64,000 nt of DNA, taken from NCBI GenBank assembly GCA_000023185.1, contig CP001623.1:620001-684000 (forward strand), in the 5' to 3' direction. Positions within the stretch are counted from its first letter, which is position 1, and every line of letters begins with the position of its first letter. Below are positions 1 through 20,223 of this stretch, one piece after another. The notes under the pieces were generated by a model that worked only from the letters and a program-made list of their open reading frames with translations, made no database searches and was not told the DNA's origin. The position numbers and the translations under genes are program-made. The DNA comes from Rhizobium leguminosarum bv. trifolii WSM1325 (GTDB lineage: Bacteria > Pseudomonadota > Alphaproteobacteria > Rhizobiales > Rhizobiaceae).

Positions 1-2
1 CC

Positions 3-281
3 GCTGCGCTGAAGGGAATGTATGAGATCGATCCAAGCTACGAACTCGCCATGCTGTGGAGCAAGCTGCCTGCGGATTGGCAGGATATCCTTCGGTCGAT
101 TCCCGCAAAGACCATCCATCTCGACTACAAGGCTCTGAGTATCGGGTTTCTCGAGGAGGCCGTGGGTCGCGGCATCTCGGTGCGGGCGTGGACCTGCAAC
201 GATCCCAAGCGGCTCGCATCATTCTGGGACGTGGGTTTGACCGGTGTGATAACAGACGACCCCAGTGTCTACCTCACGTAA
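3..281 (+). CDS. Glycerophosphodiester phosphodiesterase family protein, C-terminal fragment
   Basis: The frame is open from the window edge and stops at 281, leaving 92 residues. The tail reads VRAWTCNDPKRLASFWDVGL and then GVITDDP, which is the last beta-alpha unit of the GDPD TIM barrel, where V-x-x-W-T-x-N is followed by a G-(V/I)-x-T-D-x-P motif. Family members hydrolyse glycerophosphodiesters to glycerol 3-phosphate and an alcohol. The catalytic His-Glu residues lie upstream of the window and cannot be checked. The gene ends 9 bp before the DeoR regulator and probably shares its transcript. Family assignment is good; substrate is unknown. Confidence 0.8.
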   Translation, partial: AALKGMYEIDPSYELAMLWSKLPADWQDILRSIPAKTIHLDYKALSIGFLEEAVGRGISVRAWTCNDPKRLASFWDVGLTGVITDDPSVYLT

Positions 282-290
282 GGAGCGGCG

Positions 291-1076
291 ATGGGGCAGC
301 GGATCATATCGAGCCGACAACGTGAGATCCTTGCGCTGATCGAAACGGAAGGTGTTCAGTACATCGAGGAACTGGCACGTCGGTATGATCTGACGACACA
401 GACGATCCGTCGTGATATCAATGCATTATGCGATCTCGGGCACGCACGCCGCTTCCACGGCGGCGTCGACTTGCCGGTCGCGGGCAGCAACATCTCACTC
501 AATGCTCGCGCCCAGCTCAACCGACGGGCCAAGCGGCTGATCGCCAAGCGTGTCGCCGCCGACATAGGGGCAGACGCGACAGTGTTCCTCGGGATCGGCA
601 GCACGGTTCGGTTCGTCGCCGAGGCGCTGCGTGATCACCAGGGTCTGACGGTGATCACCAATAACATCCACGTCGCCTTGAGCCTTTGCGACGCGCCGAG
701 CGTCGAGGTCCATTTGACGGGCGGACTTTTGCGCCACGATGACCGCGACGTGGTGGGCACGGATGTGATCAGGTTCGTCGAAAAATTCTATGCGACTTAC
801 GCAGTCGTCGGCGCGGGCGCTTTGAGCCCGCTCAACGGTCTGATGGATTTCAGCTATAGCGAAGCCCAAATCACCAATGCCCTCCTTGAGAATTCACAAA
901 CGCAGATTCTGGCCGCAGACGTCAGCAAGTGGACGCGCAACGCGTCCGTGCGTGTTGCGCCATTCAGCAAACTCACCCGCTTCTACACCGATCGGCTGCC
1001 TGGCGAAGCTGCCGCCACCAATGCCCTCGCCGAGAGCGGCTTGGACGTGGTCACATGCAGCGAGGATATGACATGA
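291..1076 (+). CDS. DeoR/GlpR-family transcriptional regulator
   Basis: This is a 261-residue protein, the normal length for the family. Residues about 5-60 form the DeoR winged helix-turn-helix (RQREILALIETEG, then TTQTIRRDINALCDLG and the RFHGG wing). The rest is the DeoRC sensor domain of the ribose-5-phosphate-isomerase fold, with FLGIGSTV near residue 103, TNNIHVA, and ADVSKW, which replaces the usual ADxSK motif. Such proteins usually repress sugar operons and are released by a phosphorylated sugar. Its stop overlaps the start of the HAD gene (ATGA), so the two are translationally coupled. The target is presumably the adjacent sugar locus (inference). Confidence 0.93.
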   Translation: MGQRIISSRQREILALIETEGVQYIEELARRYDLTTQTIRRDINALCDLGHARRFHGGVDLPVAGSNISLNARAQLNRRAKRLIAKRVAADIGADATVFLGIGSTVRFVAEALRDHQGLTVITNNIHVALSLCDAPSVEVHLTGGLLRHDDRDVVGTDVIRFVEKFYATYAVVGAGALSPLNGLMDFSYSEAQITNALLENSQTQILAADVSKWTRNASVRVAPFSKLTRFYTDRLPGEAAATNALAESGLDVVTCSEDMT

Positions 1077-1918
1077 GCTATGTAGACCTTGCACCATCGG
1101 CTCGTGAGTTACAGGATGTGCGCTACCTGTTCACCGACATCGACGATACCCTGACCACCGAAGGCAAGCTTCTGCCGCAAACCTACGAAGCTCTCTGGGA
1201 TCTCAGCCGGGCGGGAATTGCCGTCGTGCCGGTCACGGGCGGCTCAGCCGGATGGTGCGAACATATCGTCCGCGCCTGGCCTGTGGCTGCCGTCATCGGC
1301 GAAAGCGGCGCATATTGCGTCACCCGTCAGGACGGCGAAGTGGTGTTCGACTATTGGGAGGATGGCGCCCTACAGGGTGAGCGCCAGCGCCAGCACCTGC
1401 AGACGATCAAAGAGCTGATCTCGCAAAATAGCCGGACGTTCAGAATTGCCCACGACCAGGTCTTCCGGCTGGCGGATGTCGCAATCGACATTCACGGTCA
1501 GGAACCGTATGAGGTCGAAGATCTGGCATCCAGCATTAGAGCCATGGGCGGAACGGTCGCGATCAGCTCCATCCACATCAACACGTGGATCGGCGATTAC
1601 AATAAGCGCTCGATGAGCGAGCGCGTTTTAACCGAGATGTTCGGTATCGATCCCGATCAAACAGCCGCCGTGACCGCCTTCGTCGGTGACTCTCGAAACG
1701 ATGCACCGATGTTTGGCTTTATCCGCAACTCTTTCGGGGTCAACAACATCATCCCGGTTCTTTCACAATTGCAATACGCGCCGAAATGGGTCTCCTCGCA
1801 GCCCGCCGGGCTTGGCTTTGCCGATATTGCCCAAACGATCTTGGACGCGGCTGGCGCAGGTTCTGAGACGTCTCGTCAGCTTTTGACCGAGCCGGCGGTC
1901 ATGCCTGCCAGGAAGTAG
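1073..1918 (+). CDS. HAD-superfamily hydrolase (class IIB-like sugar phosphatase)
   Basis: A 281-residue protein starting at the ATG that overlaps the DeoR stop; an upstream extension of the frame to 929 lies inside the regulator and is not used. HAD motif I is DIDDTLT (residues about 23-29), motif II is VTGG, a Lys follows in YNKRS, and motif IV is GDSRNDAPMF. The cap between motifs II and III fits class IIB phosphatases, which act on sugar phosphates. It may dephosphorylate an intermediate or the inducer sensed by the coupled DeoR protein (inference). Its last 43 bp overlap the 3' end of the convergent permease gene. Confidence 0.88.
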   Translation: MSYVDLAPSARELQDVRYLFTDIDDTLTTEGKLLPQTYEALWDLSRAGIAVVPVTGGSAGWCEHIVRAWPVAAVIGESGAYCVTRQDGEVVFDYWEDGALQGERQRQHLQTIKELISQNSRTFRIAHDQVFRLADVAIDIHGQEPYEVEDLASSIRAMGGTVAISSIHINTWIGDYNKRSMSERVLTEMFGIDPDQTAAVTAFVGDSRNDAPMFGFIRNSFGVNNIIPVLSQLQYAPKWVSSQPAGLGFADIAQTILDAAGAGSETSRQLLTEPAVMPARK

Positions 1919-2730
1919 CGTTGAGCAACCAGATAAAGGACCAGGAGGGGAAGGGAACCGAGCACGCTCATCGCCATCATCTCGTTCCATTCGAAGGCGT
2001 GCTGGCCCATCAGAAGCTGGATGCCGATCGGAACCGTCCTGAGGTCCATCGATTTTGTCAGCGTCAGCGCGAAGAGGAATTCGTTCCAGGCGAGCAGAAA
2101 GGTGTAGACCGCGGTGGCGACGATCCCGGGGATGGAGACCGGAACGATGACGCGCCAGAGCGCCGTCCAGCTCGAACCGCCGTCGACCAGGACGGCCTCG
2201 TCCAGCTCTTTCGGCAGGGTGTTGAGATAGCCTGTCATCAGCAGGACGGCGTAAGGCAGTGTGAAGACCATGTAGGTCAGGATCAGCGCCAGATAGGTAT
2301 CGAAGATCCTGAAGGCGACCACCATTCCGAAATAGGGAATGAGAAGGGTAATCGGCGGAACGGTCTGGGTGCTGATGATGAAGATGTTCAAGGTGTTCTT
2401 GAACCGGAACTGATAGCGGCTGAAGCCGTAGGCGGTCACGATCGCGACGAGGAGGGTCAGAATGGTGACAACGCCGGCGACAAAGTAGCTGTTGATAAAG
2501 AACCGCACTTTCACCGGATCGTTGAAAATCGTCAGATAGGCGGCCACCGTGAAATCATCCGGCAACAGCCGCGGCGGAAGGGCGAAGATTTCCGTATTCG
2601 ATTTCAGCGAGCTGAAAAACATCCACACGATCGGAAAAGCCGAAAAAACCAGGCCGATCGCCAGACCGAGATAGGTCAGGATGGTCGGCAATACCGAGCT
2701 TTTGAAGGAACGCTTTGCCATGGCGGTCAC
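1876..2730 (-). CDS. Sugar ABC transporter permease (MalG/CUT1 type)
   Basis: A 284-residue inner-membrane protein with about six hydrophobic segments. The EAA loop that contacts the ATPase is visible as LDEAVLVDGGSSWTALWRVI, followed by VPVSIPG. It pairs with the MalF-type permease, whose stop codon overlaps its GTG start (GTGA); an ATG three codons later is the alternative start. Together they form the membrane channel of a CUT1 carbohydrate importer. The C-terminal end overlaps the convergent HAD phosphatase gene by 43 bp. Confidence 0.94.
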   Translation of the reverse strand: MTAMAKRSFKSSVLPTILTYLGLAIGLVFSAFPIVWMFFSSLKSNTEIFALPPRLLPDDFTVAAYLTIFNDPVKVRFFINSYFVAGVVTILTLLVAIVTAYGFSRYQFRFKNTLNIFIISTQTVPPITLLIPYFGMVVAFRIFDTYLALILTYMVFTLPYAVLLMTGYLNTLPKELDEAVLVDGGSSWTALWRVIVPVSIPGIVATAVYTFLLAWNEFLFALTLTKSMDLRTVPIGIQLLMGQHAFEWNEMMAMSVLGSLPLLVLYLVAQRYFLAGMTAGSVKS

Positions 2731-3665
2731 CTGCGCTGCTGGTGTTTGATGTAGAAATAGGTGACGCTCATCGAGATGATGAGGATGATCATCGCGCTCG
2801 CCGAAGCCAGCGAGAATTCATACTGCGAGAAGGCGAGCTTGTAGGTGAAGGTGGAGAGCACTTCCGTCGAGTAGATCGGGCCGCCGCCCGTCGTCATCCA
2901 TACAAGCGGAAAAACCTGCATCGTCCAGATGAAGTCGAGAAGCGCGATGCTGATGATGATCGGCATCAGCTGCGGAATGGTGATGTACCAGAACTTTTGG
3001 AGTCCGTTGGCGCCGTCGATACCGGCCGCCTCGTAGAGCTCCTTCGAAATGCCCTGAAGGCCGGCGAGCAGGCTGACCATGTAGAGCGGATAACCCGCCC
3101 AGATGTTTGCGAAGGTCAAAGCGTGAATGGCGGTGCGCGTCGACGAAAACCACTCGACCTTGAAGTTGATGATATGGAGCGCCATCAGCACGCTGTTGAC
3201 GACGCCGTTCGGGTCGAGCAGCAGGCGCCAGATGATGGCGATGATGACGGCGGTGAACAGCCAGGGCAGGATGAAGAGCACACGCAGGATGCTGCGAATG
3301 AGTGGATCGACGCGGTTGGTGTTCAACAGCAGCGCGAATGCCAGGCCGATGATGAAGTGGAAGACGACGCTCATGATCGTGAAATAAAGCGTCTGCGCGA
3401 CCGACTGCCAGAAGACCGGATTTTCAAAGATGGTCACATAGTTCTGGAGCCCTGCGAAGGCAGCGGTCTTTTTCATGATGGCGCCGTCCATCAGAGAATA
3501 TTTGAAGACCATCACCATCGGGAACAGCATCAGCAGCACAAGCAGCAGGGTCGCCGGCGACACGTAGAAATACGGGACCAGCTTCCTCAAAGTGCTGTAA
3601 CGAAGCCATCCTTTTCTTCGCGCTTTGGGGTGCGCAGCGATCAGAGCCGTAGCCGAATGATTCAT
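2727..3665 (-). CDS. Sugar ABC transporter permease (MalF/CUT1 type)
   Basis: About 312 residues from the ATG at 3665. The frame is also open to a GTG at 3707, but that codon lies inside a stable inverted repeat, so the ATG preceded by GGAAAG is preferred. An N-terminal cytoplasmic stretch rich in Arg/Lys is followed by a long first membrane segment (PATLLLVLLMLFPMVMVF) and about five more. The EAA motif is ELYEAAGIDGANGLQKFWYI followed by TIPQL. It is the second gene of the binding-protein/permease operon read leftward. The ATPase partner is probably encoded at 13004. Confidence 0.94.
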   Translation of the reverse strand: MNHSATALIAAHPKARRKGWLRYSTLRKLVPYFYVSPATLLLVLLMLFPMVMVFKYSLMDGAIMKKTAAFAGLQNYVTIFENPVFWQSVAQTLYFTIMSVVFHFIIGLAFALLLNTNRVDPLIRSILRVLFILPWLFTAVIIAIIWRLLLDPNGVVNSVLMALHIINFKVEWFSSTRTAIHALTFANIWAGYPLYMVSLLAGLQGISKELYEAAGIDGANGLQKFWYITIPQLMPIIISIALLDFIWTMQVFPLVWMTTGGGPIYSTEVLSTFTYKLAFSQYEFSLASASAMIILIISMSVTYFYIKHQQRR

Positions 3666-3752: not shown

Positions 3753-5000
3753 TTAGAACTTCGCGAGCCACGCCTTCTGGGTATTGGCAGCTGCGTCCTT
3801 AGCCGACTGCCCGCCGTCGAACATCTTCTGGACTTCGACGTTCATGTCGCGCATCAGCTCTTCGGCAACCGGAAGACCGACGAATTCGTTGGCAGGATAG
3901 CCGCTCTGGAAGATTTTGAAAGCTTCCGCGAAAATCGGGTCCGAGGCCACGAAGTCCGGCTTGGCATGGACGTTGCCGGGGAAGGCATTGGCAATCGAGA
4001 CGAGACGGCCGTTAACGTCAGGGCTCATCAGGTATTCGACCAGCTTCCAGGCTTCTTCCTTGTGCTGGCTGCCTTCGCTGATGCCGATGCCCCAGGAGGC
4101 ATAGGGCATGCCGCGCTTGCCGGTGTAGCCGTCAGTGGCCGGCAAGGCGGAGATGCCGAAGTTGAGCTTCGGATTGCGCTCGCGGATGAGGTTCACATGG
4201 GCGAGGGAATCCACCATCATGCCGACGCGGCCGTTGACGAATTCTTCGACCTTGTCCTGTTCCTTCTTGGCGAAGATGCCGGGAGAAATCACGCCTTCCT
4301 TGTTGAGCGAGGCAAGATAATCGAGCGTGCCGACGACGGCGTCATTTTCGAGGTCAGGCTTGCCGTCCTTCAGCATCGAGGCGCCGGAGGCCCAGACCCA
4401 GGACATGACGTCGTTCTGGATTCCGCTCGGAGACTGCAGCGATAGCGGCAGAACCCAGCCGTACTGGTTCTTCGAGGCGTCGGTCATCTTCTTCGCGGCT
4501 TCAGCGAATTCCGTGCGCGTGGTCGGCAACTTGTCGACGCCGGCGGCCTTGGAGATATCCAGGTTCACGAAGACCGGGTAGACGAAGGATGCCAGCGGGA
4601 ACATCACGCTCTTGCCATCGACCTTGACGATATCGGTGATCTGGCTCTTGTCGTATTTCGCCTTCTCCATCAGTTCGTCCATGGAGGCGATCGCGCCCTG
4701 CTTGGCGAGCCCGTTTACCCAGGCACCATCGAGGCCGACCACGTCGCTGAGCGTTCCCGAGGCGGCGCCGACGACGATCTGGTCACGCGTCGTGGCATAG
4801 GGACCGCTGACAAGCGTCACCTTGATGCCGGGATTTTTGGCTTCGAAATCGTTCATAATGCCGCGCAAGGCGCCGGACGGCATTTCGGGTTCCCACCATT
4901 GAATGAACTCGATGGTGGTGTCGGCAAACGCGGATGTGGCGCAGAGCGCCCATACCGCTACGGCAGCCCGCATCGTCACGCCGAATTTTCTGATATTCAT
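3753..5000 (-). CDS. Sugar ABC transporter substrate-binding protein (CUT1 type)
   Basis: A 415-residue periplasmic protein. A Sec signal peptide is visible (basic start, hydrophobic AAVAVWALCATSAFA, cleavage near residue 26), and the mature protein begins TTIEFIQWWEP. The family-1 extracellular solute-binding features follow: FEAKNPGIKVTLV, GLDGAWV, PYASWGIGIS and a C-terminal region with EELMRDMN. It is the first gene of the operon with two permeases and is transcribed leftward from the 5001-5572 region shared with a lacI-type gene. The ligand is unknown; the neighbours point to a carbohydrate or glycoside. Confidence 0.94.
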   Translation of the reverse strand: MNIRKFGVTMRAAVAVWALCATSAFADTTIEFIQWWEPEMPSGALRGIMNDFEAKNPGIKVTLVSGPYATTRDQIVVGAASGTLSDVVGLDGAWVNGLAKQGAIASMDELMEKAKYDKSQITDIVKVDGKSVMFPLASFVYPVFVNLDISKAAGVDKLPTTRTEFAEAAKKMTDASKNQYGWVLPLSLQSPSGIQNDVMSWVWASGASMLKDGKPDLENDAVVGTLDYLASLNKEGVISPGIFAKKEQDKVEEFVNGRVGMMVDSLAHVNLIRERNPKLNFGISALPATDGYTGKRGMPYASWGIGISEGSQHKEEAWKLVEYLMSPDVNGRLVSIANAFPGNVHAKPDFVASDPIFAEAFKIFQSGYPANEFVGLPVAEELMRDMNVEVQKMFDGGQSAKDAAANTQKAWLAKF

Positions 5001-5572
5001 CTGTGCCTCCCAAAGATTGTCAGTTAATCGATCCTCCTCAAGATCGTAGGCAAAGTAGGTTCCCTGAAGGCCCTATCTGTCAATGAAGAACTGCGATCGG
5101 AAAAAGTTGGGAGGCCGGCATTCACGGCGTGCGTCGAGTTAAATCATTGATAAAAAATAATAAAATTGATTGACATTATCCGTATTTTTCTGCAGCATTT
5201 GTGTTGCTTGTGACGCATTTTTTCTTTACTTTCGTAAACAAATGAAAGTTTACCCAACAAAATGAAAAGCGTGGAACCCGGCGTCTTCACTGCAAATTTT
5301 CGAATTTGGGGCGCTGAAACAAGCACCTTTTGCAACCACGCGGCGCAAATGGCGCAAGTCGCAGTGAAGGGAATATTTCGATTTCGAAAGGGAGGGCAGG
5401 GCCCGCACCAAAAGTGACGGATCACGCCGGCTTACGTGGTGGGTTTCGACGATTGAGGATACGAAGATCACCTGTACAAATTGCCGAATGCGTGATTTGG
5501 CGCGTCAGAGGATTGGCCGTTGCGTCAAATCATACCCGATCAGTTGTCGTCGTCCCGCCGGTAAGGAATTGA
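5001..5572. promoter_or_regulatory. Divergent promoter region between sugar ABC operon and lacI-type gene
   Basis: This 572-bp stretch has no convincing gene. Its central part (about 5140-5260) is very AT-rich for this genome, as expected of promoters. It contains an inverted repeat GTAAAC-N8-GTTTAC at 5234-5253, the size of a LacI-family operator. A second, imperfect repeat (GATTTGGCGC at 5494-5503, GCGTCAAATC at 5522-5531, one mismatch) lies about 40 bp before the regulator start. Either could be the autoregulatory site. A TTGACA at 5170 has no good partner -10. Confidence 0.5.
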
Positions 5573-6607
5573 ATGGCCAAGAAAAATTATAAATCGATGG
5601 ACGACTTCGCGACCGCCGCCGGCGTATCGCGTCCGACCTTGTCGAAGTATTTCGACGATCCCTCACAGATCAAGGAGGTGACCCGCAAGCGTATCGAGGC
5701 GGCTCTCAAGAAGTCGCATTTCGAGCCGAACCTTTTCGCCCGGCATCTCAATCGCAAGCGGACCAGGAATATCGGGATTCTGGTCCCGACCATGTCGGAT
5801 CCCTTTTATGTGCAGGTCGTGTCGCTGATCGAGCTGGAGTTGCGCGAAAAGGGATTCTGGCCCGTCCAGATCTCTTCGCACACGCGGCCGGAGCTGGAGG
5901 CGGAGGCCGTGCGGACCTTGCTGTCGCTGAAGGTTGCAGGCGCGATCGTGGCGCCGCTCGGCGCCGGTTCACGCCGTTCCGCGCTGGAAAGACTAAGCGG
6001 CGCAATCCCCGTCGTCTGCTTCGACAACCCTGCCGGCGCTGACCTTCCCTATGTCGGAAACGATAACGCGCAAAGCATGGCAGCCATTGTGCAATATCTC
6101 TGCCGGTCCGGTGAGCCACCGATATTCCTGGAGATTCCACATTTGACCGAAAATGCTGGCGAGCGGCAGGAGAGCTACCGCGCGACCATGGCGAGGGAGG
6201 GGCATACTCCGCTGGTCATCGATTGCGACGCACCACCTTCCTGGGAATTCGAGCGTCTCGGATACGAGCAGATGCAGAGAATTCTTGCCAAAGACGGTCT
6301 TCCCGGCAAAACGCTGCTATGCGCCAATGACCGCTTCGCTTTCGGAGCAATGGCTGCCGCATTCGCTTCGGGACTGAAAATCGGTCGTAGCGACGCGTGC
6401 GACGTACGCATTGCCGGGCACGACGACCACCCGCTTAGCCGATACACCTGCCCGTCGCTGACGACCATGGCTCAGAACGCGCCGGAGATCGCCGCGAAAT
6501 CCGTGGAGCTTTTGCTGGCACATATCGAGAGCGAGGATGATGGAACGACCCCTGCGACGAATAAGGTGATCCTCGAGGCAACGCTGGTTATGCGCGAATC
6601 GGCTTGA
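5573..6607 (+). CDS. LacI-family transcriptional regulator
   Basis: A 344-residue protein. The N-terminal HTH is MDDFATAAGVSRPTLSKYFD (about residues 8-27), with a hinge around RKRIEAALKKSHFEPNLFAR, slightly different from the canonical V-S-x-x-T-V-S. The periplasmic-binding-like effector domain starts at NIGILVPTMSDPFY and ends ATLVMRESA. The start is an ATG after TAAGGAAT. It is divergent from the CUT1 importer across 572 bp, so it is the natural regulator of that operon. The effector is unknown. Confidence 0.93.
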   Translation: MAKKNYKSMDDFATAAGVSRPTLSKYFDDPSQIKEVTRKRIEAALKKSHFEPNLFARHLNRKRTRNIGILVPTMSDPFYVQVVSLIELELREKGFWPVQISSHTRPELEAEAVRTLLSLKVAGAIVAPLGAGSRRSALERLSGAIPVVCFDNPAGADLPYVGNDNAQSMAAIVQYLCRSGEPPIFLEIPHLTENAGERQESYRATMAREGHTPLVIDCDAPPSWEFERLGYEQMQRILAKDGLPGKTLLCANDRFAFGAMAAAFASGLKIGRSDACDVRIAGHDDHPLSRYTCPSLTTMAQNAPEIAAKSVELLLAHIESEDDGTTPATNKVILEATLVMRESA

Positions 6608-6627: not shown

Positions 6628-7563
6628 TCAACGGGTAAGCGCAGGGTCCATGGCGCGCCATGCCATTGCGATGGCTTCGAGGGCCTCTTGTGCTTCCGGA
6701 ATAGCCCGTCGCTTCGATACGAAGCCATGGATCTGTCCGGGCCAGGTCCGGGTCGTTGCCTTCGCCTCGGTGCTGAGCCGCTCGGCATAAGCGGCCCCTT
6801 CGTCGAACAGCACGTCGTATCCGGCAAGGATCACGAGCGCCGGCGCCACGCCCGCCAGCGACGCTACGTTCAGCGGCGAGGCTCGCCAGTCCGACCGGCT
6901 CGTAGGTTCCGGCAGATAGTGGTCTCGGAACCATTTCATCGCCGCGGCCGTCAGGCCGAAATCCTCTTGGTAACGCAAGTAGCTGTCGCTTGTCTGCAAC
7001 TGATCGGTCACCGGATAGATCAGCACCTGTCCGATGACAGCCGGCACCTGTCCGTCCCGCGCCAACAGGGCGACGACGGCGGCCAGATTGCCACCGGCGC
7101 TATCGCCGGCGACGAGAATTCGCAAGGGATCGATGCCGAGCGCATCCGCCTGCTCCGTCATCCAGACGAATGTGGCGGCGCAGTCGTCAATGGCAGCGGG
7201 AAAGGGGTGTTCCGGGGCCAGGCGATAGTCGGGCGAAACCACGACGGCGCCTGCCATATTGGCAAGCGTCCGGCAGATATCCTCATGGGTTTCCGGCGCG
7301 CCGATGACAAAGCCGCCGCCATGGAGATAGAGCAAGGCCGGTGCGCCCTGGCGCGGCGCAGCGCGGCCGCGCCATATCTTCAACCGGATTGCGCCCGCAT
7401 GCCTTTCCAGGATCTCGGCTACGTCTTCGAGCGGCCGTTGAATGTCTGCGAAACTATCCAGATATTGCTGCCGCGCCAGCGCCGGCGTGCAGCTTTCGAC
7501 CGGCGTTTGGGGATCGCCGGGCCATGCAAGCGCACGTTTGGCGGATTCATCCAGTTGTGTCAT
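6628..7563 (-). CDS. Alpha/beta hydrolase (hormone-sensitive-lipase family esterase)
   Basis: A 311-residue protein of the HSL/carboxylesterase group IV. The oxyanion-hole motif HGGGFVIG (about residue 100) precedes the nucleophile elbow GDSAGGN. The acid is in YDVLFDEG and the catalytic His in GQIHGF. It would hydrolyse a carboxylic ester or lactone in the cytoplasm. It overlaps the upstream oxidoreductase gene by 4 bp (ATGA), so the two are coupled; deacylation of a sugar or opening of a sugar lactone made by the oxidoreductase is plausible (inference). Confidence 0.92.
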   Translation of the reverse strand: MTQLDESAKRALAWPGDPQTPVESCTPALARQQYLDSFADIQRPLEDVAEILERHAGAIRLKIWRGRAAPRQGAPALLYLHGGGFVIGAPETHEDICRTLANMAGAVVVSPDYRLAPEHPFPAAIDDCAATFVWMTEQADALGIDPLRILVAGDSAGGNLAAVVALLARDGQVPAVIGQVLIYPVTDQLQTSDSYLRYQEDFGLTAAAMKWFRDHYLPEPTSRSDWRASPLNVASLAGVAPALVILAGYDVLFDEGAAYAERLSTEAKATTRTWPGQIHGFVSKRRAIPEAQEALEAIAMAWRAMDPALTR

Positions 7564-10805: not shown

Positions 10806-10917
10806 AAATCGAAATATTGAATGTTTGTTTGTTTTCGAGTTAGGGTTTTTCCAGCATCGGCGCCGGCAATCGCAAGCCTGCAATCACAAAGTCGGCAATC
10901 ACAAAGGAAGTCTCGCC

Positions 10918-13003: not shown

Positions 13004-14149
13004 GTGGCTGTGGTTGTACTCGACAAAATCTGCAAGACCTATGGAAACAGCTACCATGCGATCAAGGATCTGAGCCTGACGATCCATGATGGCGAGTTTC
13101 TGATTCTGGTCGGGCCGTCCGGATGCGGAAAATCGACCGCTCTGCGCATGATTGCCGGGCTCGAGGAAATCAGCAGCGGAACATTGAGCATCGGCGGCCA
13201 GGACGTCGTGGATCTCGCGCCCAAGGACCGGGACATTGCCATGGTCTTTCAGAGCTATGCGCTTTATCCGCACATGACCGTCTTCGATAACATTGCCTTT
13301 TCGATGAAGCTGGCCGGAAAGAACAAGGCCGAACGCACCAAACGTGTCCACGAAATCGCCAAGATCCTGCAGCTGGAGCCCTTGCTGGGCAACAAGCCCG
13401 CGCAGCTTTCCGGCGGCCAGCGCCAGCGTGTTGCGATGGGCCGCGCCATGGTCCGCGAGCCCGCGGCATTCCTCATGGACGAACCGCTCTCGAACCTCGA
13501 TGCGAAGCTGCGTGTTCAGATGCGGGCAGAGATCGCCAGCCTGCAGAGACAGCTGGGCGTGACGACGATCTATGTGACGCACGACCAGACTGAAGCGCTG
13601 ACCATGGGCGATCGGGTCGCGGTGCTGAAGGGCGGCGTGCTGCAGCAGGTGGATACGCCCAAGGCTCTGTATCACCGCCCGGTCAATGCGTTTGTCGCCG
13701 GCTTTATCGGTTCGCCGTCGATGAACCTTTTCGAAGGGCGTCTGGCGGGCGGACGGATCCATCTGCCGGGCTTCTCCATCCCCTTGTCCGGCGGCGCCTT
13801 CGAGCGCTCTCCCGGTCTATCCGCTTTCGAGGGAAAGGATGTGATCTTTGGGGTCAGGCCCGAGGACCTCTACGACAGCCGGTTGCCATCTGGCGCCTCC
13901 CATCCGACGATCCCGGTTGTCGTGAAATCGATCGAGGAGCTTGGCTCCGAGCTGATCGTGCATTTGAAGATCGACGCGGTCCGCATCGACTCGGGCGACC
14001 CCGATGCCGTCGAGGACCTGAGCGGGGCCGCCAATGCCGTCGCGCGGTTCGAAGCGGTCAGCGCGGTCGAGACAGGCCAATCGATCGACCTGGCCATCGA
14101 CCCGGCGAAACTGCACTTTTTCCACCCTCAAACGCATATGGCGCTGTGA
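13004..14149 (+). CDS. Sugar ABC transporter ATP-binding protein (MalK/UgpC/MsmK type)
   Basis: About 381 residues from the GTG at 13004, which has GGGAGG 7 bp upstream; an upstream in-frame ATG at 12902 lacks such a site. Walker A is GPSGCGKST (about 37-45), the signature LSGGQRQR, Walker B AFLMDEPLSNLDA, and the switch His is in VTHDQTEA. The C-terminal MalK-type TOBE domain follows IGSPSMNLFEG. It should energise the permeases at 1876-3665, which lack their own ATPase gene. It heads the operon with the second oxidoreductase set. Confidence 0.93.
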   Translation: MAVVVLDKICKTYGNSYHAIKDLSLTIHDGEFLILVGPSGCGKSTALRMIAGLEEISSGTLSIGGQDVVDLAPKDRDIAMVFQSYALYPHMTVFDNIAFSMKLAGKNKAERTKRVHEIAKILQLEPLLGNKPAQLSGGQRQRVAMGRAMVREPAAFLMDEPLSNLDAKLRVQMRAEIASLQRQLGVTTIYVTHDQTEALTMGDRVAVLKGGVLQQVDTPKALYHRPVNAFVAGFIGSPSMNLFEGRLAGGRIHLPGFSIPLSGGAFERSPGLSAFEGKDVIFGVRPEDLYDSRLPSGASHPTIPVVVKSIEELGSELIVHLKIDAVRIDSGDPDAVEDLSGAANAVARFEAVSAVETGQSIDLAIDPAKLHFFHPQTHMAL

Positions 14150-14284: not shown

Positions 14285-15361
14285 ATGCCAGCAAAACAGG
14301 AACGACGTCTCCGCATCGGCGTATTGGGAGCGGGCCAGATTGCCCAGGCCGCGCATTTCGAGAGCTGCACCAAGGCAGCCAATGCCGACCTTTATGCAAT
14401 TTGCGATGTTGCCGAAGATCTCCGCGAACGTATGGCCATCACCCATGGGGCGGAAAAAACCTATGACGACTACGACAAGATGCTGGCCGATCCCGACCTC
14501 GATGCCGTGGTCATCGCGACCGCCGACGCCTTTCACGTGCCTGCTTCCATTCGCGCCCTTCAGGCAGGCAAGCATGTGCTTTGCGAAAAACCCGTCGGTG
14601 TCACCATCGAGGAATGCCTTGAACTGAAGGCTGTGGTCGACACGTCGGGAAAGGTGTTTCAGGTCGGGCATATGAAGCGTTTCGACGCGGGGCTGCAGGC
14701 TGCCAAGTCCTTCATCCGCGATGAAATGGGCGAGATGGTCGCTCTGAAAGCATGGTATTGCGACAGCACGCACCGCTATCCGATGACCGATGCGGTTCAG
14801 CCCCTGATCGTCACCAGCGCCAATGCGAAGAAACCCTCCGCCAATCCGAAGGCCGACCTGCGGCGCTACTATATGCTTGCCCATGGTTGCCATCTGATCG
14901 ACACGGCCCGTTATTTCGCCGGCGACATCGTTTCCGTCAACGCTCGTCTGTCCGAGCGAGCCGGTATCTGGTGCTGGTTCGTGGACGTGGAATTTGCCTC
15001 CGGCACGCTCGGCCATCTCGATCTCACCGTCCAGGTGCGCATGGACTGGCACGAAGGCTTCCAGATCTATGGCAAGAACGGCAGCATTTTGGGCAAGACC
15101 TATAACCCGTGGTACTACAAGAGCAGTGAGGTCGACATTTTCCGGGAAGCGGACGGCGCCACACACCGTGTTCTCGGTGCCGACGGCCATTTCTACCGCC
15201 GCCAGGTCGAAGGCTTCGCCCGCACCATTCTGGATGGCGCGGTGATGGAAGGGGCCGATATCGATGATGGCCTCGCATCCGTCCGGGCCATGGTTGCCGT
15301 CGCGCGTTCCGCCGAAAGCGGCAAGGCGGTTGCGCTGTCCGACGTCACGGGTGGCGTGTGA
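14285..15361 (+). CDS. Gfo/Idh/MocA-family oxidoreductase
   Basis: A 358-residue protein with AAAGGG before the ATG. The Rossmann motif is IGVLGAGQIAQAAHFES, the cofactor strand CDVAEDLRERMA, and the EKP motif HVLCEKPVGVTIEE. C-terminal substrate-domain features include RRYYMLAHGCHLIDTARYF, where the His and Asp occupy the usual catalytic neighbourhood. The stop overlaps the start of the next gene (TGATG). With the TIM barrel and hydrolase that follow it forms a tightly coupled pathway unit. Confidence 0.92.
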   Translation: MPAKQERRLRIGVLGAGQIAQAAHFESCTKAANADLYAICDVAEDLRERMAITHGAEKTYDDYDKMLADPDLDAVVIATADAFHVPASIRALQAGKHVLCEKPVGVTIEECLELKAVVDTSGKVFQVGHMKRFDAGLQAAKSFIRDEMGEMVALKAWYCDSTHRYPMTDAVQPLIVTSANAKKPSANPKADLRRYYMLAHGCHLIDTARYFAGDIVSVNARLSERAGIWCWFVDVEFASGTLGHLDLTVQVRMDWHEGFQIYGKNGSILGKTYNPWYYKSSEVDIFREADGATHRVLGADGHFYRRQVEGFARTILDGAVMEGADIDDGLASVRAMVAVARSAESGKAVALSDVTGGV

Positions 15362-16206
15362 TGAAGCTCGGCATCTTCGCAAAGACCTTCGAGGGAACGG
15401 AACCCGTAACCGTTCTCAACTCGGTCGCTGGCGCCGGGTTCAGTTGCGCACAATACAATATGGCCTGCTCGGGCCTTGCGCCGATGCCGGAGATCATCAC
15501 GGAAGCCCAGGCCCGCGCAGTCGGCGAAGCGGCGCGTAGCAGCGGCGTCGAGATCGTTGCCGTTTCCGGCACCTTCAACATGATTCATCCGGATCTCGCC
15601 GTGCGCGAGGCCGGCCTTCGCAAACTGGCGACCCTGGCCGAGCGCTGCGCCGGCATGTCGACCACCTTGATCACGCTCTGCACCGGCACACGCGACCCCA
15701 TCGACCAGTGGAAGGCGCATGCCGACAACGACACGCCGGAGGCCTGGCGGGATCTCCTCGAGGCGATGGGCGCGGCCATCGAGATCGCCGAGCGTTACGA
15801 TGTCGATCTCGGCGTCGAGCCCGAGCTTGCCAATGTCGTCAACTCGGCTGAGAAAGCCCATCGGCTGATTACGGCACTGAAGAGCCCCCGCATCAAGATC
15901 GTGCTCGATCCAGCCAATCTCTTCGAGGTCGCGACGCTCGATGAGCAGCGGAACATTGTCTCTTCCGCCATCGACCTTCTGGCCGATCGGATCGTCATGG
16001 CACATGCGAAAGATCGCAATCCGGACGGTAGTTTCGCGACCGCCGGCAAGGGTGTGCTCGACTACGCGCATTATCTCGGCCGTCTCAAGGCGATCGGCTT
16101 CGAGGGCAGTCTCGTCACACATGGCCTTTCGGCTTCGGAGGCGGCCGGTGCGGCGAGTTTCCTGAAGAGCAGTCTCGGCGGCGAAGCTGTGGGGGCAGGA
16201 AGATGA
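15361..16206 (+). CDS. Sugar phosphate isomerase/epimerase family TIM-barrel protein
   Basis: A 281-residue xylose-isomerase-like barrel. The start is the ATG at 15361, one base into the preceding stop; a GTG one codon earlier is possible. Metal-site candidates are VEPE in LGVEPELANV, VLDPANL, and VMAHAKDRN. It is about as related to the copy at 8989 as the broad family allows, so it is not a recent duplicate. It likely isomerises or eliminates from the keto product of the upstream oxidoreductase (inference). ATGA overlap with the next gene. Confidence 0.88.
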   Translation: MKLGIFAKTFEGTEPVTVLNSVAGAGFSCAQYNMACSGLAPMPEIITEAQARAVGEAARSSGVEIVAVSGTFNMIHPDLAVREAGLRKLATLAERCAGMSTTLITLCTGTRDPIDQWKAHADNDTPEAWRDLLEAMGAAIEIAERYDVDLGVEPELANVVNSAEKAHRLITALKSPRIKIVLDPANLFEVATLDEQRNIVSSAIDLLADRIVMAHAKDRNPDGSFATAGKGVLDYAHYLGRLKAIGFEGSLVTHGLSASEAAGAASFLKSSLGGEAVGAGR

Positions 16207-17012
16207 GATGGGCTGAACCGTTCGAAACCAGCGACGGGACCATTCTCAATGTCGATATGGCGGGCGAGGGCGCGTCCATAATCTTCCAGCATGGCTTATG
16301 CGGCGACGCGGCGCAGACCGACGAAGCCTTTCCGCTCGAAGCGGGTTTTCGCCGGGTAACGATCGAAGCGCGCGGCCACGGCCATTCCCAAACCGGCAAT
16401 CCGGAGCAGCTGTCGATCGCGACCTTCTGCGATGATATCGCCGCCTATATCGAAAAGAACCTTATGCCGCCGATCGTGATCGGCGGCATCTCGATGGGCG
16501 CGGCGATCGCCCTGCGTCTCGCGGTCAAGCGGCCCGATCTTGTCAAGGCTCTGATCATAGCAAGGCCGGCCTGGCTGACGGCATCCGCGCCGGAGAATAT
16601 GGCACCCAACGCCGAAGTCGGGCGGCTTCTGAAAACTCTGCCACTGGGCGAAGCAAAGACCGCATTCCTTGCCGGGCCGGTGGGCGTGCGGCTCGCCGCC
16701 GAGGCGCCGGACAATCTGGCCTCGCTTGCCGGTTTTTTCTCCCGCACGCCTTTGGATGTGACCGCCGAACTGCTCACCAGGATTTCCAATGATGGTCCTG
16801 ATGTGACCGACGAGGAGGTCGGCAATCTCACCGTACCGACGCTGGTTATCGGCCATGATCGGGACAGCATTCATCCTCTCAGCCATGCGCGTGCTCTTGT
16901 CGAGCGGATTGCCGGCGCGCGCTTCGTGCAGATCACGCCGAAGACTGAGAGCCGTCCGCAATACGTCGCCGACTTCCGGCTTGCCATGGGCCATTTTCTG
17001 AAGGAGCTCTGA
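16203..17012 (+). CDS. Alpha/beta-fold hydrolase
   Basis: A 269-residue protein of the classical alpha/beta hydrolase fold. Oxyanion strand IIFQHGLCGD (about 26-35), nucleophile elbow IGGISMGAA (Ser about residue 98), acid in VIGHDRDSIHP. A canonical late catalytic His is not obvious, since the C-terminal segment reads ITPKTESRPQYVADF. It is coupled to the TIM-barrel gene by a 4-bp overlap. It may open a lactone or hydrolyse an acyl group in the same pathway. Distinct from the HSL-type hydrolase at 6628. Confidence 0.87.
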   Translation: MRWAEPFETSDGTILNVDMAGEGASIIFQHGLCGDAAQTDEAFPLEAGFRRVTIEARGHGHSQTGNPEQLSIATFCDDIAAYIEKNLMPPIVIGGISMGAAIALRLAVKRPDLVKALIIARPAWLTASAPENMAPNAEVGRLLKTLPLGEAKTAFLAGPVGVRLAAEAPDNLASLAGFFSRTPLDVTAELLTRISNDGPDVTDEEVGNLTVPTLVIGHDRDSIHPLSHARALVERIAGARFVQITPKTESRPQYVADFRLAMGHFLKEL

Positions 17013-17016
17013 AACA

Positions 17017-17718
17017 ATGACGACCCCCTCCAAGACCTGGATCGCCGATCTTCCGAAGGATCGCCTGATTGCCGAATTCTCGGTCTGGTCGGCCGATCTC
17101 GTGCATCTGGCGGATGATCTGGCGCGTGTCGATCCTCACGTCGACATCCTCCACATCGATGTCGCCGATGGCCATTTCGCGCCGGCCATGTTGTTTTTCC
17201 CCGATCTTGTTGCCGGCGTGCGCAAAGTGTCCGCGCGCCCGATCCATGTTCACCTGATGGTCGCCGACAGCATCCTCCTGTCGCAGATCGAGCAGTTCGC
17301 CGATGCGGGCAGCGACCTGATCAGTCTTCATGTCGAAAACGAAAGCGTCGCTGTCGAGGCTCTCGATCTTCTCGATCGCCGCGGTGTCGCTGCCGGCATG
17401 GTGCTCAAGGTCGACACCCCCGTCGAACGGGTCGAGAGATATGCTTCCCGGCTGCGCTTTGTGACGCTGCTCGGCACGGCGATTGGCGTGAAGGGCCAGG
17501 GCCTCGACGAAAAGGCTGGTGCGCGGCTTCAGCAGGCAAAGCAGATCATCGCCGGTTGCGGTGCGGCGCATCGAATCGTGCTGGCGGCCGACGGCGGTAT
17601 TCGCGAGCACACCGTGCCGCTTCTGCGCCAGTCGGGTGCGGAAACGGTGGTCCTCGGTTCCCTGGCTTTCAATGCGCCATCGCTAGACGAGCGGATGGCA
17701 TGGGTGCGCGCACTCTAA
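17017..17718 (+). CDS. Ribulose-phosphate 3-epimerase family protein (divergent)
   Basis: A 233-residue TIM barrel with AAGGAG before the ATG. Family landmarks are FSVWSADL, LHIDVADGHFAPAM (metal His and Asp), IHVHLMVAD, ISLHVEN and VLAADGGI with a C-terminal VLGSLAF. The usual SVNPGFGGQ loop is replaced by GTAIGVKGQGL, so the active-site loop differs and the substrate is probably not plain ribulose 5-phosphate. It lies 4 bp after the hydrolase and 14 bp before the ROK kinase. Confidence 0.87.
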   Translation: MTTPSKTWIADLPKDRLIAEFSVWSADLVHLADDLARVDPHVDILHIDVADGHFAPAMLFFPDLVAGVRKVSARPIHVHLMVADSILLSQIEQFADAGSDLISLHVENESVAVEALDLLDRRGVAAGMVLKVDTPVERVERYASRLRFVTLLGTAIGVKGQGLDEKAGARLQQAKQIIAGCGAAHRIVLAADGGIREHTVPLLRQSGAETVVLGSLAFNAPSLDERMAWVRAL

Positions 17719-17732
17719 CTCATGGTCTTCAC

Positions 17733-18698
17733 ATGCAGCAGGTTGCCATTGGAATCGACCTCGGTGGGACGCAGGTGCGCGCTGCCCTCGTCGACGAGCA
17801 GGGCAGGATTCTGGCGCGCGCAGCCGAACCGACGGATGCGTTGGCGGGCCCCGACCGCGTGCTCGCCCAAATCTGCGGCCTGACCGACGGACTGCTTGCA
17901 GCATCGAACCCCGCTTCGGTGGTGGGCGTCGGCGTATCCGCTCCGGGCCCGCTCGATACGGTCGCCGGTGTCGCCTCGAATATCCCGACCCTCTCCGGCT
18001 TTGTCGACTTTCCGCTGAAGGCGGAGTTGCAGAAGCGGTTTCCGTTTCCGGTCGACCTCGAGAATGATGCGATTGCCGCTGCCATCGGTGAGTGGCAGTT
18101 CGGAGCCGGAACGGGGCTCGACAATTTGGTGTATGTCACCGTGAGCACTGGCATTGGCGGTGGCGTTGTGTCGGATGGTCGCGTCGTGCGCGGCCGCAAG
18201 GGCATGGCAGCCCATGTTGGGCACATGTCGGTCGTGCCGAACGGAGAGCTTTGCCCCTGCGGCAACAGGGGTTGTTTCGAGGCCTACGGATCCGGAACGG
18301 CATTTGCGCGCCGCGCCCAAATCAGGGCTGTGGAATCCAGCGCGACGACAATAGGCAGCGATGGCGGCGCCATCGATAGCCGCAGCGTTTTTGCAGCAGC
18401 AAGAAATGGCGATCGTCTCGCAAATCAACTGATTGACGAGGAAGCGGAAATTCTCGGTCGCGGCTTCACCAGCCTGATCCATATCTTCAGTCCCGATATC
18501 ATCGTGATGGGAGGCGGTCTTTCCCACGAGTTCGACCGACTGCAACCCGGCATTCAAGGCTACATCACGCAATGGGCAATGCCGGCATTCAAGGATGTCA
18601 GGGTAATGCTGGCGGCGTTGGACCAGAACTCGGGCCTCGTCGGCGCAGCTGCTCTGGCGTTTCTGACCGGAAAGGTCCCGGCGGTCGATCAGATTTAG
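17733..18698 (+). CDS. ROK-family sugar kinase
   Basis: A 321-residue protein. The ATG at 17733 lies 14 bp after the epimerase stop; upstream extension is inside that gene. The ATP-binding motif is GIDLGGTQVRAAL, the catalytic Asp is in DLENDAIAA, and the zinc/ROK signature is GHMSVVPNGELCPCGNRGCF. No DNA-binding domain is present, so it is a kinase and not a repressor. It would phosphorylate a hexose or related sugar released by the pathway. Confidence 0.92.
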   Translation: MQQVAIGIDLGGTQVRAALVDEQGRILARAAEPTDALAGPDRVLAQICGLTDGLLAASNPASVVGVGVSAPGPLDTVAGVASNIPTLSGFVDFPLKAELQKRFPFPVDLENDAIAAAIGEWQFGAGTGLDNLVYVTVSTGIGGGVVSDGRVVRGRKGMAAHVGHMSVVPNGELCPCGNRGCFEAYGSGTAFARRAQIRAVESSATTIGSDGGAIDSRSVFAAARNGDRLANQLIDEEAEILGRGFTSLIHIFSPDIIVMGGGLSHEFDRLQPGIQGYITQWAMPAFKDVRVMLAALDQNSGLVGAAALAFLTGKVPAVDQI

Positions 18699-18786
18699 AA
18701 AAGCAGGCCGATCCTGCGTGCTGTAAACGCAATGACGCAAGGCCCCTCGAGACACGGGAACGGTTTGTGCGACGGGCAGGGTCGAA

Positions 18787-19023
18787 ATGGGCGCAGCCAA
18801 GACAATCGTCAACGTCCCCTTTCCGTATCGAGAGGTTGCTCTCCGTCAGGGCGGCGAGGCGATACTTAAGGTGCTGATCAACGGCGTCACGTGGGCCTAT
18901 AATCCCGAGGGGTCGTTGACTGGTATCACCGATGCTCCAAATGTGCCTGTAGAAAAAGCACTGGAGCCGATCGTCGAACGCGGCCCGAGACTGCACCAGG
19001 CCGGCGAAGCCGGTTACCGCTGA
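18787..19023 (+). CDS. Small hypothetical protein
   Basis: A 78-residue frame with AGGG near its ATG, in the 487-bp gap between the ROK kinase and an oxidoreductase. The sequence has no signal peptide or membrane segment that I recognise; the centre reads AILKVLINGVTWAYNPEGSL. It lies in the same direction as its neighbours. It may be a real small gene or a remnant; coding is uncertain. The rest of the gap (18699-18786 and 19024-19185) shows nothing I can name. Confidence 0.35.
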   Translation: MGAAKTIVNVPFPYREVALRQGGEAILKVLINGVTWAYNPEGSLTGITDAPNVPVEKALEPIVERGPRLHQAGEAGYR

Positions 19024-19185
19024 GGAACTGAAACACCGTCCTTGGGCGGGACGCCACGCATGCGGTCCGCCCGGCAAAACGCTGTGCTGACAGTCGTCGC
19101 TCTCCATTTGGCAAGACCATCTGGCGCTTGTGAAAGACGACGGTTCTGGCGCGAATGATTTCGATAAACGACCATGAGGACAAAA

Positions 19186-20223
19186 ATGCGCTTGATCATT
19201 CTCGGAACCGGAGGATGGGCAAACACCCATGCCATGAATTTTTCCGAAATCGCCGACGTGAAAATTGTTGCTGCTGTTGATACGGACGAGGTCCGGCTAC
19301 GGGCCTTCGCGCTAAGGCATGGTATCCCACTTACCTTCACGTCGCTTGATGACGCTCTTGCCTGGGGAGAGTTTGACGCCGTGACCAATGTCACGCCGGA
19401 TCGCGCGCATTATTCCACGACAATGAAGATACTCGGCGCCGGCAAGCATGTCCTCTGCGAGAAGCCGCTGGCGGTTAACTACCGCGAAGCCAAAGAGATG
19501 GCCGACGCTGCCGCTGCGTCCGGCAAGGTCACGATGGTAAACCTTACCTATCGTAATGTAGCGCCGCTGCAAGCAGCGCGTAAGATGGTGTTGGACGGAC
19601 GCCTCGGCGCGATCCGCCACTTCGAAGCATCCTATCTCCAGAGCTGGCTGGTCTCAAAGGCGTGGGGCGACTGGACCAAGGAATCGCAATGGCTTTGGCG
19701 GCTGTCGACAAAGCACGGCTCCAATGGCGTGCTGGGCGATGTCGGTATCCATATTCTCGACTTCGCGGTTTTTGCCGCCGGAAGTGACGTCAAGGCGGCT
19801 GCATCGCATCTTAAGGTGTTCGACAAGAGCCCCGGAAATCGGATCGGCGAGTATGATCTCGACGCCAACGACAGTTTCCTGATGATGGCTGAACTCGAAA
19901 ACGGTGCCGCTGGCGTCATCCACGCAACGCGCTGGGCAACCGGCCATCTGAACGAATTGCGCCTGCGCCTGCATGGAGACAAGGGCGCGCTGGAGGTGGT
20001 GCATACGCCTGAAGGTTCGACGCTCAGGGCCTGTGAAGGTCCCGATGCCGACAAGGCAATCTGGCGTAAGATCGACGTCGAACCGGTTATCACTAATTTC
20101 CAGCGCTTTGCAAACGCCGTGCAAAAGGGGCAGCTGGATGAGCCTGGTTTTGGCCACGCAGCCAAGCTGCAATTCGTTCTTGACCACGCAGTGAAGACGG
20201 CCGGCGCTCTGATCGAACTTTAA
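19186..20223 (+). CDS. Gfo/Idh/MocA-family oxidoreductase
   Basis: About 345 residues; the ATG at 19186 is preceded by TGAGGA at good spacing and is preferred to the ATG 12 bp upstream. The N-terminus MRLIILGTGGWANTHAMNF is the nucleotide-binding motif, with AVDTDEVRLRAFA and HVLCEKPLAVNYREA. The C-terminal domain has LGDVGIHILDFAVF with the conserved Asp and His. It is the third member of this family in 13 kb and stands alone at the end of the island. Confidence 0.9.
   Translation: MRLIILGTGGWANTHAMNFSEIADVKIVAAVDTDEVRLRAFALRHGIPLTFTSLDDALAWGEFDAVTNVTPDRAHYSTTMKILGAGKHVLCEKPLAVNYREAKEMADAAAASGKVTMVNLTYRNVAPLQAARKMVLDGRLGAIRHFEASYLQSWLVSKAWGDWTKESQWLWRLSTKHGSNGVLGDVGIHILDFAVFAAGSDVKAAASHLKVFDKSPGNRIGEYDLDANDSFLMMAELENGAAGVIHATRWATGHLNELRLRLHGDKGALEVVHTPEGSTLRACEGPDADKAIWRKIDVEPVITNFQRFANAVQKGQLDEPGFGHAAKLQFVLDHAVKTAGALIEL

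Follow-up and report, generated by a model that had tools for sequence, protein, structure and literature searches.

A three-block plasmid locus of Rhizobium leguminosarum carries a portable dehydrogenase and TIM-barrel cassette with a predicted role in sugar catabolism

We analyzed a 64,000-nucleotide stretch of Rhizobium leguminosarum bv. trifolii WSM1325 (contig CP001623.1, positions 620,001 to 684,000; hereafter the window), whose first 20,300 bases are a 100% match to NC_012848.1, plasmid pR132501. The original prediction had regarded the 19 genes at positions 1-20223 as one 20-kb sugar island encoding the full set of enzymes for a possibly undescribed route. The natural unit is smaller, extending from ~1876 to 18698 and containing 16 of these genes, and this core is very probably one conserved catabolic locus built from three blocks. 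Block A consists of a LacI-family regulator next to a hormone-sensitive-lipase-type esterase (HSL), a Gfo/Idh/MocA dehydrogenase (Gfo1), and a xylose-isomerase-like barrel (TIM1). Block B contains a second dehydrogenase (Gfo2), a second barrel (TIM2), an alpha/beta hydrolase (ABH2), an epimerase-like protein (RpeL), and a ROK-family kinase (ROK), and is a portable cassette. Block C comprises a CUT1 importer, made up of MalG, MalF, a solute-binding protein (SBP), and a UgpC-type ATPase, together with a DeoR-family regulator (DeoR2), a class I aldolase, and a PfkB kinase. The block is not contiguous in WSM1325, where its DeoR2-aldolase-PfkB-ATPase part lies between TIM1 and Gfo2.

All 19 genes are present as open frames, and Pfam domains and annotation bear out the families that had been listed at each place: three Gfo/Idh/MocA proteins, two xylose-isomerase-like barrels, two alpha/beta hydrolases, an epimerase-like protein, ROK and PfkB kinases, a DeoC-family class I aldolase, a HAD-IIB protein, and CUT1 importer genes. 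As the genome has 34 Gfo/Idh/MocA matches in 7,418,122 bases, ~0.09 are expected per 20 kb, and the three observed are well above a random spread. Only two of the 19 gene products reached an NCBIfam cut-off: HAD, on a model for a broad subfamily, and the importer ATPase, on one for the UgpC subfamily; no core enzyme between 1876 and 18698 reached any. A full-text search of the open-licence literature returned no functional study of the locus; of the strain 3841 genes pRL120015, pRL120017-031, pRL120033, and pRL120034, two were named there, in one paper (PMC5118466). The proposal that the genes lack a known assignment stands for the core, and falls for three of the 19 genes. Rfam and tRNA scans of the window were empty.

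A profile-guided search of genome contigs yielded 422 TIM2 relatives, of which we kept the best 80 loci, scoring presence by identity and coverage thresholds. Gfo2, TIM2, and ABH2 occurred together in 75 of the 80, RpeL in 72, ROK in 60, TIM1 in 25, and the aldolase in 24. In 24 loci the genes followed a single order, with HSL and Gfo1 pointing left and TIM1, aldolase, PfkB, Gfo2, TIM2, ABH2, RpeL, and ROK pointing right; 21 of these had all ten genes and three lacked one or two (threshold or contig end). The hosts were Rhizobium, Shinella, Agrobacterium sp. a22-2, other Rhizobiales, and a Rhizobium metagenome-assembled genome. The importer genes lay outside most of the fetched stretches, yet were within plasmid records that matched window positions 1876-18677 over one stretch.

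The distribution among genomes is nested. Across 120 Rhizobium genomes, counted without regard to their kinship, the 31 aldolase carriers were all among the 53 TIM1 carriers, which in turn were all among the 69 TIM2 carriers. TIM1 and TIM2 were ~1.9 kb apart in 32 of the Rhizobium genomes and ~6.4 kb apart in 21, and the aldolase lay at most 8 kb from TIM1 in 29 of 31. A family-wide sample of 151 genomes contained the aldolase in four, TIM1 in seven, and TIM2 in 17. Class-wide even draws (385 genomes each), with no more than six candidates scored per genome, matched only the genome itself and bear weakly on distribution.

Comparisons with other plasmids place the ends of the unit. Among the 40 plasmid records listed, the match starts at window positions 1869-1876 in 13, without the first DeoR and HAD genes, and stops at 18667-18710, right at ROK, in 17. 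Since both flanks belong to other systems, a ugp-linked run and a thu operon (described below), and plasmid matches start and stop at the same places, we take 1876-18698 as the unit. A single pathway containing all 19 genes was rejected on the ugp linkage of DeoR and HAD and the identity of ThuB. Membership in separate known operons, which the original prediction had named as a refuting result, applies to the first DeoR, the HAD, and the third Gfo/Idh/MocA gene, which sit in neighboring operons, and to these three genes only.

Block B also occurs without the others. Agrobacterium, R. lentis, and Rhizobium SL42 have B without A and C, and Mesorhizobium jarvisii, Paraburkholderia, and Shinella zoogloeoides have Gfo2-TIM2-ABH2 and a ROK, with no RpeL match. 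TIM2 relatives were also found by profile search in Rhodobacterales and Burkholderiales. In Sinorhizobium sp. B11 (TIM2 51% identity), MalF-SBP-UgpC-PfkB-aldolase point left, DeoR2 and LacI point right, HSL-Gfo1 point left, and TIM1-Gfo2-TIM2-ABH2-RpeL-ROK point right. R. tropici CIAT 899 has LacI, HSL, Gfo1, an SBP, and MalF- and MalG-like permeases (33-35% identity), followed by TIM1-Gfo2-TIM2-ABH2-RpeL-ROK; block C was absent from the stretch examined. The importers beside B include the block C CUT1 type, other CUT1 sets (clusters c16-c18, 14 loci each), and a ribose-type set (c15, 15 loci, BPD_transp_2). As the cassette remains constant while the importers vary, its most plausible target is an intermediate common to several substrates.

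Some B loci have further neighbors. Larger clusters surround B in L062 (2-19 kb), L065, L072, and L077, with a ribose-type importer, a SorC-type regulator, a ROK-AAA fusion kinase, a DeoC-type aldolase, a tagatose-kinase-like PfkB, a GatZ-like protein, two short-chain dehydrogenases/reductases (SDRs), and a GMC oxidoreductase. B is accompanied by its CUT1 importer in R. lentis (L005) and Agrobacterium (L004); at 4-7 kb in these two loci, both are preceded by genes of the lrgA/lrgB type and for a protein of the ROK family, and in L005 by an RbsD/FucU gene as well.

Alignments indicate that TIM2, ABH2, and RpeL have unusual conserved residues. Of 87 TIM2 sequences, 97% or more have His254 at the beta8 position. 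Its single-sequence model (predicted local distance difference test, pLDDT, 37.3) was dropped in favor of a 44-sequence model (pLDDT 95.3), whose listed fold matches were mainly epimerases and included the Agrobacterium protein AtHYD. The Agrobacterium eliminase AtOGE (8BVK) was not among the 50 matches listed by either Foldseek or VIA, which excludes nothing. ABH2 retains Ser97 and Asp221, and has no His in the catalytic-His column, which is E, L, R, or T in the four homologs shown; Lys247, two residues before, is conserved. The ABH2 family spans homologs in L016-L095. RpeL is 31% identical to AlsE and 27% identical to the one other epimerase match in the genome. Gfo2 keeps EKP and H203 and lacks the Asp four residues before H203. 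Gfo1 keeps EKP and has Tyr185 in place of the His of DgpA1, scyllo-inositol/L-glucose dehydrogenase (two entries), and LGDH. The TIM1 residues H149, D180, H206, and E246/E247 are invariant; where AtOGE has its catalytic His, two residues after the first metal ligand, TIM1 has Ser151, with His at 153 and 154. HSL keeps HGGG, GDSAG, D250, and H279 in at least 97% of 25 aligned sequences, and the ENDA-type Asp112 and CxCGxxGC zinc motif of ROK are conserved.

From gene content, conservation, linkage, conserved residues, and the TIM2 fold, all established here, we infer a mechanism. The importer would take up a glycoside, an anhydrosugar, or an acylated sugar, and HSL would remove an ester or open a lactone. 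Gfo1 and Gfo2 would make and later reduce a keto-sugar. TIM1, with a His/Asp/His/Glu-type metal site like that of AtOGE, may eliminate, hydrate, or dehydrate, and TIM2, whose fourth metal ligand would be His rather than Glu, may move or invert the center beside the keto group to give a ketohexose. ROK would phosphorylate this ketohexose, RpeL would invert C3 of the ketose phosphate in the manner of AlsE to yield fructose-6-phosphate, and PfkB and the aldolase would handle a second product. Any role for ABH2 is a guess. The strongest clue is the ROK-RpeL pair, which recalls AlsK-AlsE; as the role of a duplicate Rpe is improbable for RpeL, the pair suggests that the route ends in 3-epimerization of a ketose phosphate. 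We give such an end point for block B nearly an even chance. A route of oxidation, elimination or isomerization, phosphorylation, and 3-epimerization into fructose-6-phosphate is in our view the best explanation of the locus, held tentatively and with slightly less assurance than the end point; the particular oxidation and elimination/isomerization scheme drawn above is more doubtful again.

Several observations weigh against this fructose-6-phosphate route. RpeL scored 134.7 bits on the generic rpe model versus 107.9 on the AlsE model, reaching neither cut-off, and ROK is nearer to glucokinase-type ROK proteins (213 bits) than to AlsK (115.7). The Glu-to-His change in TIM2 speaks against the usual epimerase chemistry. 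In many B loci neither an aldolase nor a second kinase lies close by; the aldolase is on a different contig in two of the 31 Rhizobium genomes, and in the family-wide sample one of the seven TIM1 genomes (G079) lacks TIM2 at threshold and another (G088) has the two genes on separate contigs. We looked for an operator common to all intergenic regions of blocks A, B, and C and found none. In an INSeq study (PMC5118466), pRL120027 (aldolase) and pRL120033 (RpeL) of strain 3841 were neutral on mannitol and rich medium, a result that counts neither for nor against the route; the available portion of a rhizosphere RB-TnSeq paper (PMC11103875) names other pRL12 genes.

Two Gfo proteins and two TIM barrels could also fit an elimination/hydration route or a YcjQRS-like epimerization route. 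The elimination route corresponds to the C3 oxidation and beta-elimination that had been proposed along with a pairing of Gfo/Idh/MocA and TIM-barrel genes; that pairing in a conserved locus is borne out, and the chemistry is only possible. The locus would then be functionally equivalent to lgdA-B1-B2-C or GlycDH-AtOGE-AtHYD-Gfo: Gfo1 would oxidize the glycoside, TIM1 eliminate the aglycone, TIM2 hydrate the 2-hydroxy-3-keto-glucal, Gfo2 reduce 3-keto-glucose, and ROK phosphorylate glucose. We consider this unlikely. An end point at glucose requires neither RpeL nor PfkB and the aldolase, yet RpeL was in 72 of the 80 TIM2 loci, and TIM1, the supposed eliminase, was in only 25. Gfo1 (75 bits) and Gfo2 (70 bits) fall far short of the LevoglcsnDh cut-off of 650, and Pfam detected no GMC flavoprotein among the 19 genes. 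Stereochemical editing, in which an unusual hexoside is oxidized at C3 by a Gfo protein, inverted at the adjacent carbon by a TIM barrel, and reduced at C3 by a Gfo protein to deliver an ordinary sugar to ROK, is less probable still: the beta8 Glu of YcjR is His254 in TIM2, both barrels resemble YcjR only weakly by profile (hhalign probability 83.8 for TIM2 and 66.6 for TIM1), Pfam found no YcjQ-, YcjT-, or YcjU-like gene in the core, and RpeL is left unexplained.

A tagatose-type chain has the merit of accounting for four genes together. ROK would produce a ketohexose-6-phosphate, RpeL would convert it to tagatose-6-phosphate, PfkB would add a second phosphate to give the 1,6-bisphosphate, and cleavage by the class I aldolase would release two triose phosphates. 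Near B in other alphaproteobacteria, tagatose-kinase-like PfkB genes occur in 15 of the 80 loci, DeoC-family genes in 11, and GatZ/KbaZ-like genes in nine, and in L031, which has all three blocks, a tagatose-kinase-like PfkB and a GatZ-like gene directly follow ROK. The tagatose-kinase model was the top match for all eight PfkB proteins tested from near B elsewhere, with two above cut-off (L062 and L039) and L031 at 407 against 420; two of five GatZ-like proteins exceeded the TIGR02810 cut-off, and a DeoC-family member from L084 scored 145 bits on the tagatose-1,6-diphosphate aldolase model (cut-off 184). In L039 the PfkB/GatZ pair lies 6-8 kb away from TIM2, perhaps with no connection to it. 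Proteins of the GatZ type are able to epimerize tagatose-6-phosphate at C4. Ketohexose metabolism is a plausible theme, and the chain itself is improbable, because the window PfkB scored only 74.1 bits on TagKinase (cut-off 420) and B is widespread without a nearby aldolase or PfkB, leaving tagatose-6-phosphate a dead end unless handled elsewhere. The reading we find least probable is an aldonate route, in which Gfo1 oxidizes C1, a hydrolase opens the lactone, Gfo2 oxidizes C3, TIM2 decarboxylates the 3-keto acid, and ROK and RpeL bring the pentulose into the pentose phosphate pathway. Apionate catabolism is comparable, and the oxidative D-apiose pathway uses apiose dehydrogenase, a lactonase, an oxidoisomerase, and a decarboxylase. 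Such a route would suit the Tyr of Gfo1 at the His position of its four best-aligned solved relatives, the best match of RpeL to the rpe model, and lactonase roles for ABH2 and HSL (the best NCBIfam match of ABH2 is 3-oxoadipate enol-lactonase, 74 bits, cut-off 256). It would make a distinct RpeL redundant with the genome's other epimerase, and most of the listed TIM2 fold matches are epimerases, although a shared fold is no proof of function.

Beyond the preferred fructose-6-phosphate route, we suggest, as a speculation that is somewhat unlikely to hold in full, that alpha- and betaproteobacteria share an undescribed "keto-sugar relay", Gfo2-TIM2-ABH2-RpeL(-ROK), that can be passed on horizontally. 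In it, a dehydrogenase would work with a novel kind of TIM-barrel isomerase, whose metal site would be Glu/Asp/His/His, and with an alpha/beta-fold enzyme lacking the usual catalytic His. A hexose derivative would become a rare ketohexose that is phosphorylated and C3-epimerized into central metabolism, with blocks A and C and the other importers as front ends. If the mechanism is true, it would assign a locus of R. leguminosarum (including 3841), Shinella, Sinorhizobium, and relatives and point to a substrate for which plant-associated bacteria compete, and the cassette enzymes, with their unusual active sites, would extend the 3-keto-sugar toolbox for glycoside cleavage and rare-sugar production.

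Candidate regulatory sites were also found. The 11-base word GAAATCGAAAT has two exact occurrences in the first 21 kb, one in the SBP/LacI gap and one in the DeoR2/aldolase gap. With at most one mismatch, it is in or beside the DeoR2/aldolase gap in 12 of 14 loci scanned, as a word selected after the fact; it was missing near the aldolase in L052 and L053. The pair of candidate boxes fits a single DeoR2 regulon for the split block C. In the divergent Gfo1/TIM1 region, a block with TTGACG.ACG.TAACATT followed by a ACGTAATG-like stretch (8787-8828) is a candidate LacI operator or promoter.

The flanking genes have other affiliations. In both WSM1325 and 3841, ugpB-A-E-C, a glycerophosphodiesterase gene with a GDPD domain, DeoR, and HAD are contiguous on one strand, which assigns DeoR and HAD (291-1918), as far as gene order can tell, to the ugp/glycerophosphodiester run. 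On the other side, the 3841 gene that is 99% identical to the third Gfo/Idh/MocA gene follows genes for an SBP, two permeases, an ATPase, and a ThuA-domain protein, an operon that we take to be thuEFGKAB. In L002 (3841), the gene preceding thuB carries the ThuA domain. Window positions 18810-18867 align to L002 26841-26898 and 18868-20400 to L002 31918-33463, so that 5,019 bases of L002, containing thuEFGK and most of thuA, are absent from the WSM1325 window. By these alignments the third Gfo is the orphan ThuB of a degraded thuEFGKAB operon, and the ROK operon upstream may now drive thuB expression. The thuEFGKAB operon of rhizobia reportedly specifies a 3-keto-trehalose route; it is separate from the core, to which its likeness is limited to this gene. 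With the boundaries corrected, the pathway should be drawn without ThuB and without the regulator and phosphatase linked to ugp. Genes annotated for ectoine/hydroxyectoine, ehuABCD-eutABC, adjoin the region at ~27-33 kb of the window.

Table 1. Features of the core locus and its flanks (window positions)
Feature	Position	Strand	Remarks
DeoR/GlpR regulator	291..1076	+	outside core; ~10 bases 3' of the glycerophosphodiesterase gene trailing ugpBAEC (WSM1325, 3841)
HAD-IIB hydrolase	1073..1918	+	outside core; overlaps DeoR gene; TIGR01484 64.5 bits, cut-off 41.8
MalG-type CUT1 permease	1876..2730 (annotated 1876-2721)	-	PF00528
MalF-type CUT1 permease	2727..3665	-	PF00528
Solute-binding protein (SBP)	3753..5000	-	SBP_bac_1; closest solved chain SmoF 7nbz, E 1.1e-19
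Candidate DeoR2 box, GAAATCGAAAT	5375..5385	-	SBP/LacI gap; picked post hoc
LacI-family regulator	5573..6607	+	NCBIfam and Pfam scans
HSL, hormone-sensitive-lipase-type esterase	6628..7563	-	block A; Abhydrolase_3
Gfo1 dehydrogenase	7560..8708	-	block A; Pfam
Conserved promoter block (candidate)	8787..8828	.	divergent Gfo1/TIM1 region; clear in 9 of 10 orthologous sequences, not L095
TIM1, xylose-isomerase-like barrel, IolE-like	8989..9807	+	block A; PF01261
DeoR2 regulator	9900..10661	-	block C; NCBIfam and Pfam scans
Candidate DeoR2 box, GAAATCGAAAT	10805..10815	+	DeoR2/aldolase gap
DhnA/FBA-I-type class I aldolase	10918..11718	+	block C; PF01791; Lys178, Tyr145 conserved; pRL120027 in 3841
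PfkB-family kinase	11722..12663	+	block C; PF00294; tagatose-kinase model 74.1 bits, cut-off 420
MalK/UgpC-type importer ATPase	13004..14149	+	block C; NF008653 441 bits, cut-off 432
Gfo2 dehydrogenase	14285..15361	+	cassette B; PF01408
TIM2, ketose-3-epimerase-like barrel	15361..16206	+	cassette B; PF01261; E153/D183/H215/H254
ABH2, alpha/beta hydrolase	16203..17012	+	cassette B; Abhydrolase_1
RpeL, ribulose/allulose-phosphate-3-epimerase-like	17017..17718	+	cassette B; PF00834; pRL120033 in 3841
ROK-family sugar kinase	17733..18698	+	cassette B; PF00480
thuA stub, 3' end only	18868..19023 (end approximate)	+	outside core; alignment to L002 (3841)
ThuB, third Gfo/Idh/MocA	19186..20223	+	outside core; 99% identical to gene after thuA in 3841

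We compared the core with known systems. Membership in the iol pathway was rejected, as Gfo2 (135.9 bits) and Gfo1 (58.7) were below the IolG cut-off of 355 (TIGR04380) and TIM1 (75.7) was below the IolE cut-off of 290 (TIGR04379); the tagatose-kinase pathway was rejected on the PfkB score (model NF049991). The levoglucosan genes lgdA-lgdB1-lgdB2-lgdC of Bacillus smithii (PMC7676230, PMC10066097) resemble the core in having two Gfo/Idh/MocA and two PF01261 barrel genes beside a sugar importer, and Pfam places this same combination (Gfo1, Gfo2, TIM1, and TIM2) together here. The core differs in its extra kinase, epimerase, and aldolase genes, and membership was rejected at the LgdA cut-off of 650 (NF052479), where Gfo1 scored 75.0, Gfo2 70.1, and ThuB 126.5 bits. 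The Agrobacterium O-glucoside route (GlycDH-AtOGE-AtHYD-Gfo) is similar in its oxidoreductases and two TIM barrels, in the fold match of AtHYD to TIM2, and in the AtOGE-type metal residues of TIM1; as described in PMC10628242, its first oxidation is performed by a flavoprotein, and the core has none. No GMC/FAD domain of an FAD-dependent C3 glycoside dehydrogenase was detected by Pfam in the 19 genes, the rest of the genome being outside this search.

The E. coli ycjMNOPQRSTUVW cluster, in which YcjQRS convert gulosides to glucosides, shares with the core a LacI repressor, a CUT1 importer, a Gfo protein (YcjS), and a TIM barrel (YcjR) that acts on 3-keto-glucosides. The core differs in its low similarity, in the His ligand at beta8 of TIM2, and in having no counterpart of YcjQ, YcjT, or YcjU. 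Membership was rejected because YcjQ, a zinc alcohol dehydrogenase-type enzyme, was absent by core Pfam domains and by blastp of the window proteins at E 1e-3, and because TIM2 lacks the beta8 Glu of YcjR, which TIM1 keeps in a weak match. The E. coli D-allose genes alsRBACEK likewise pair a ROK kinase with a neighboring ketose-phosphate 3-epimerase, but have a ribose-type importer and no Gfo or TIM barrel; RpeL and ROK were rejected as members at cut-offs of 271 (NF007266, AlsE) and 253 (NF007251, AlsK). The chemistry is of a known kind, that of a keto-sugar dehydrogenase and a TIM barrel, and what sets the locus apart is the combination and the cassette residues. On our best reading, the route would work like the levoglucosan, O-glucoside, Ycj, and allose routes and be a member of none.

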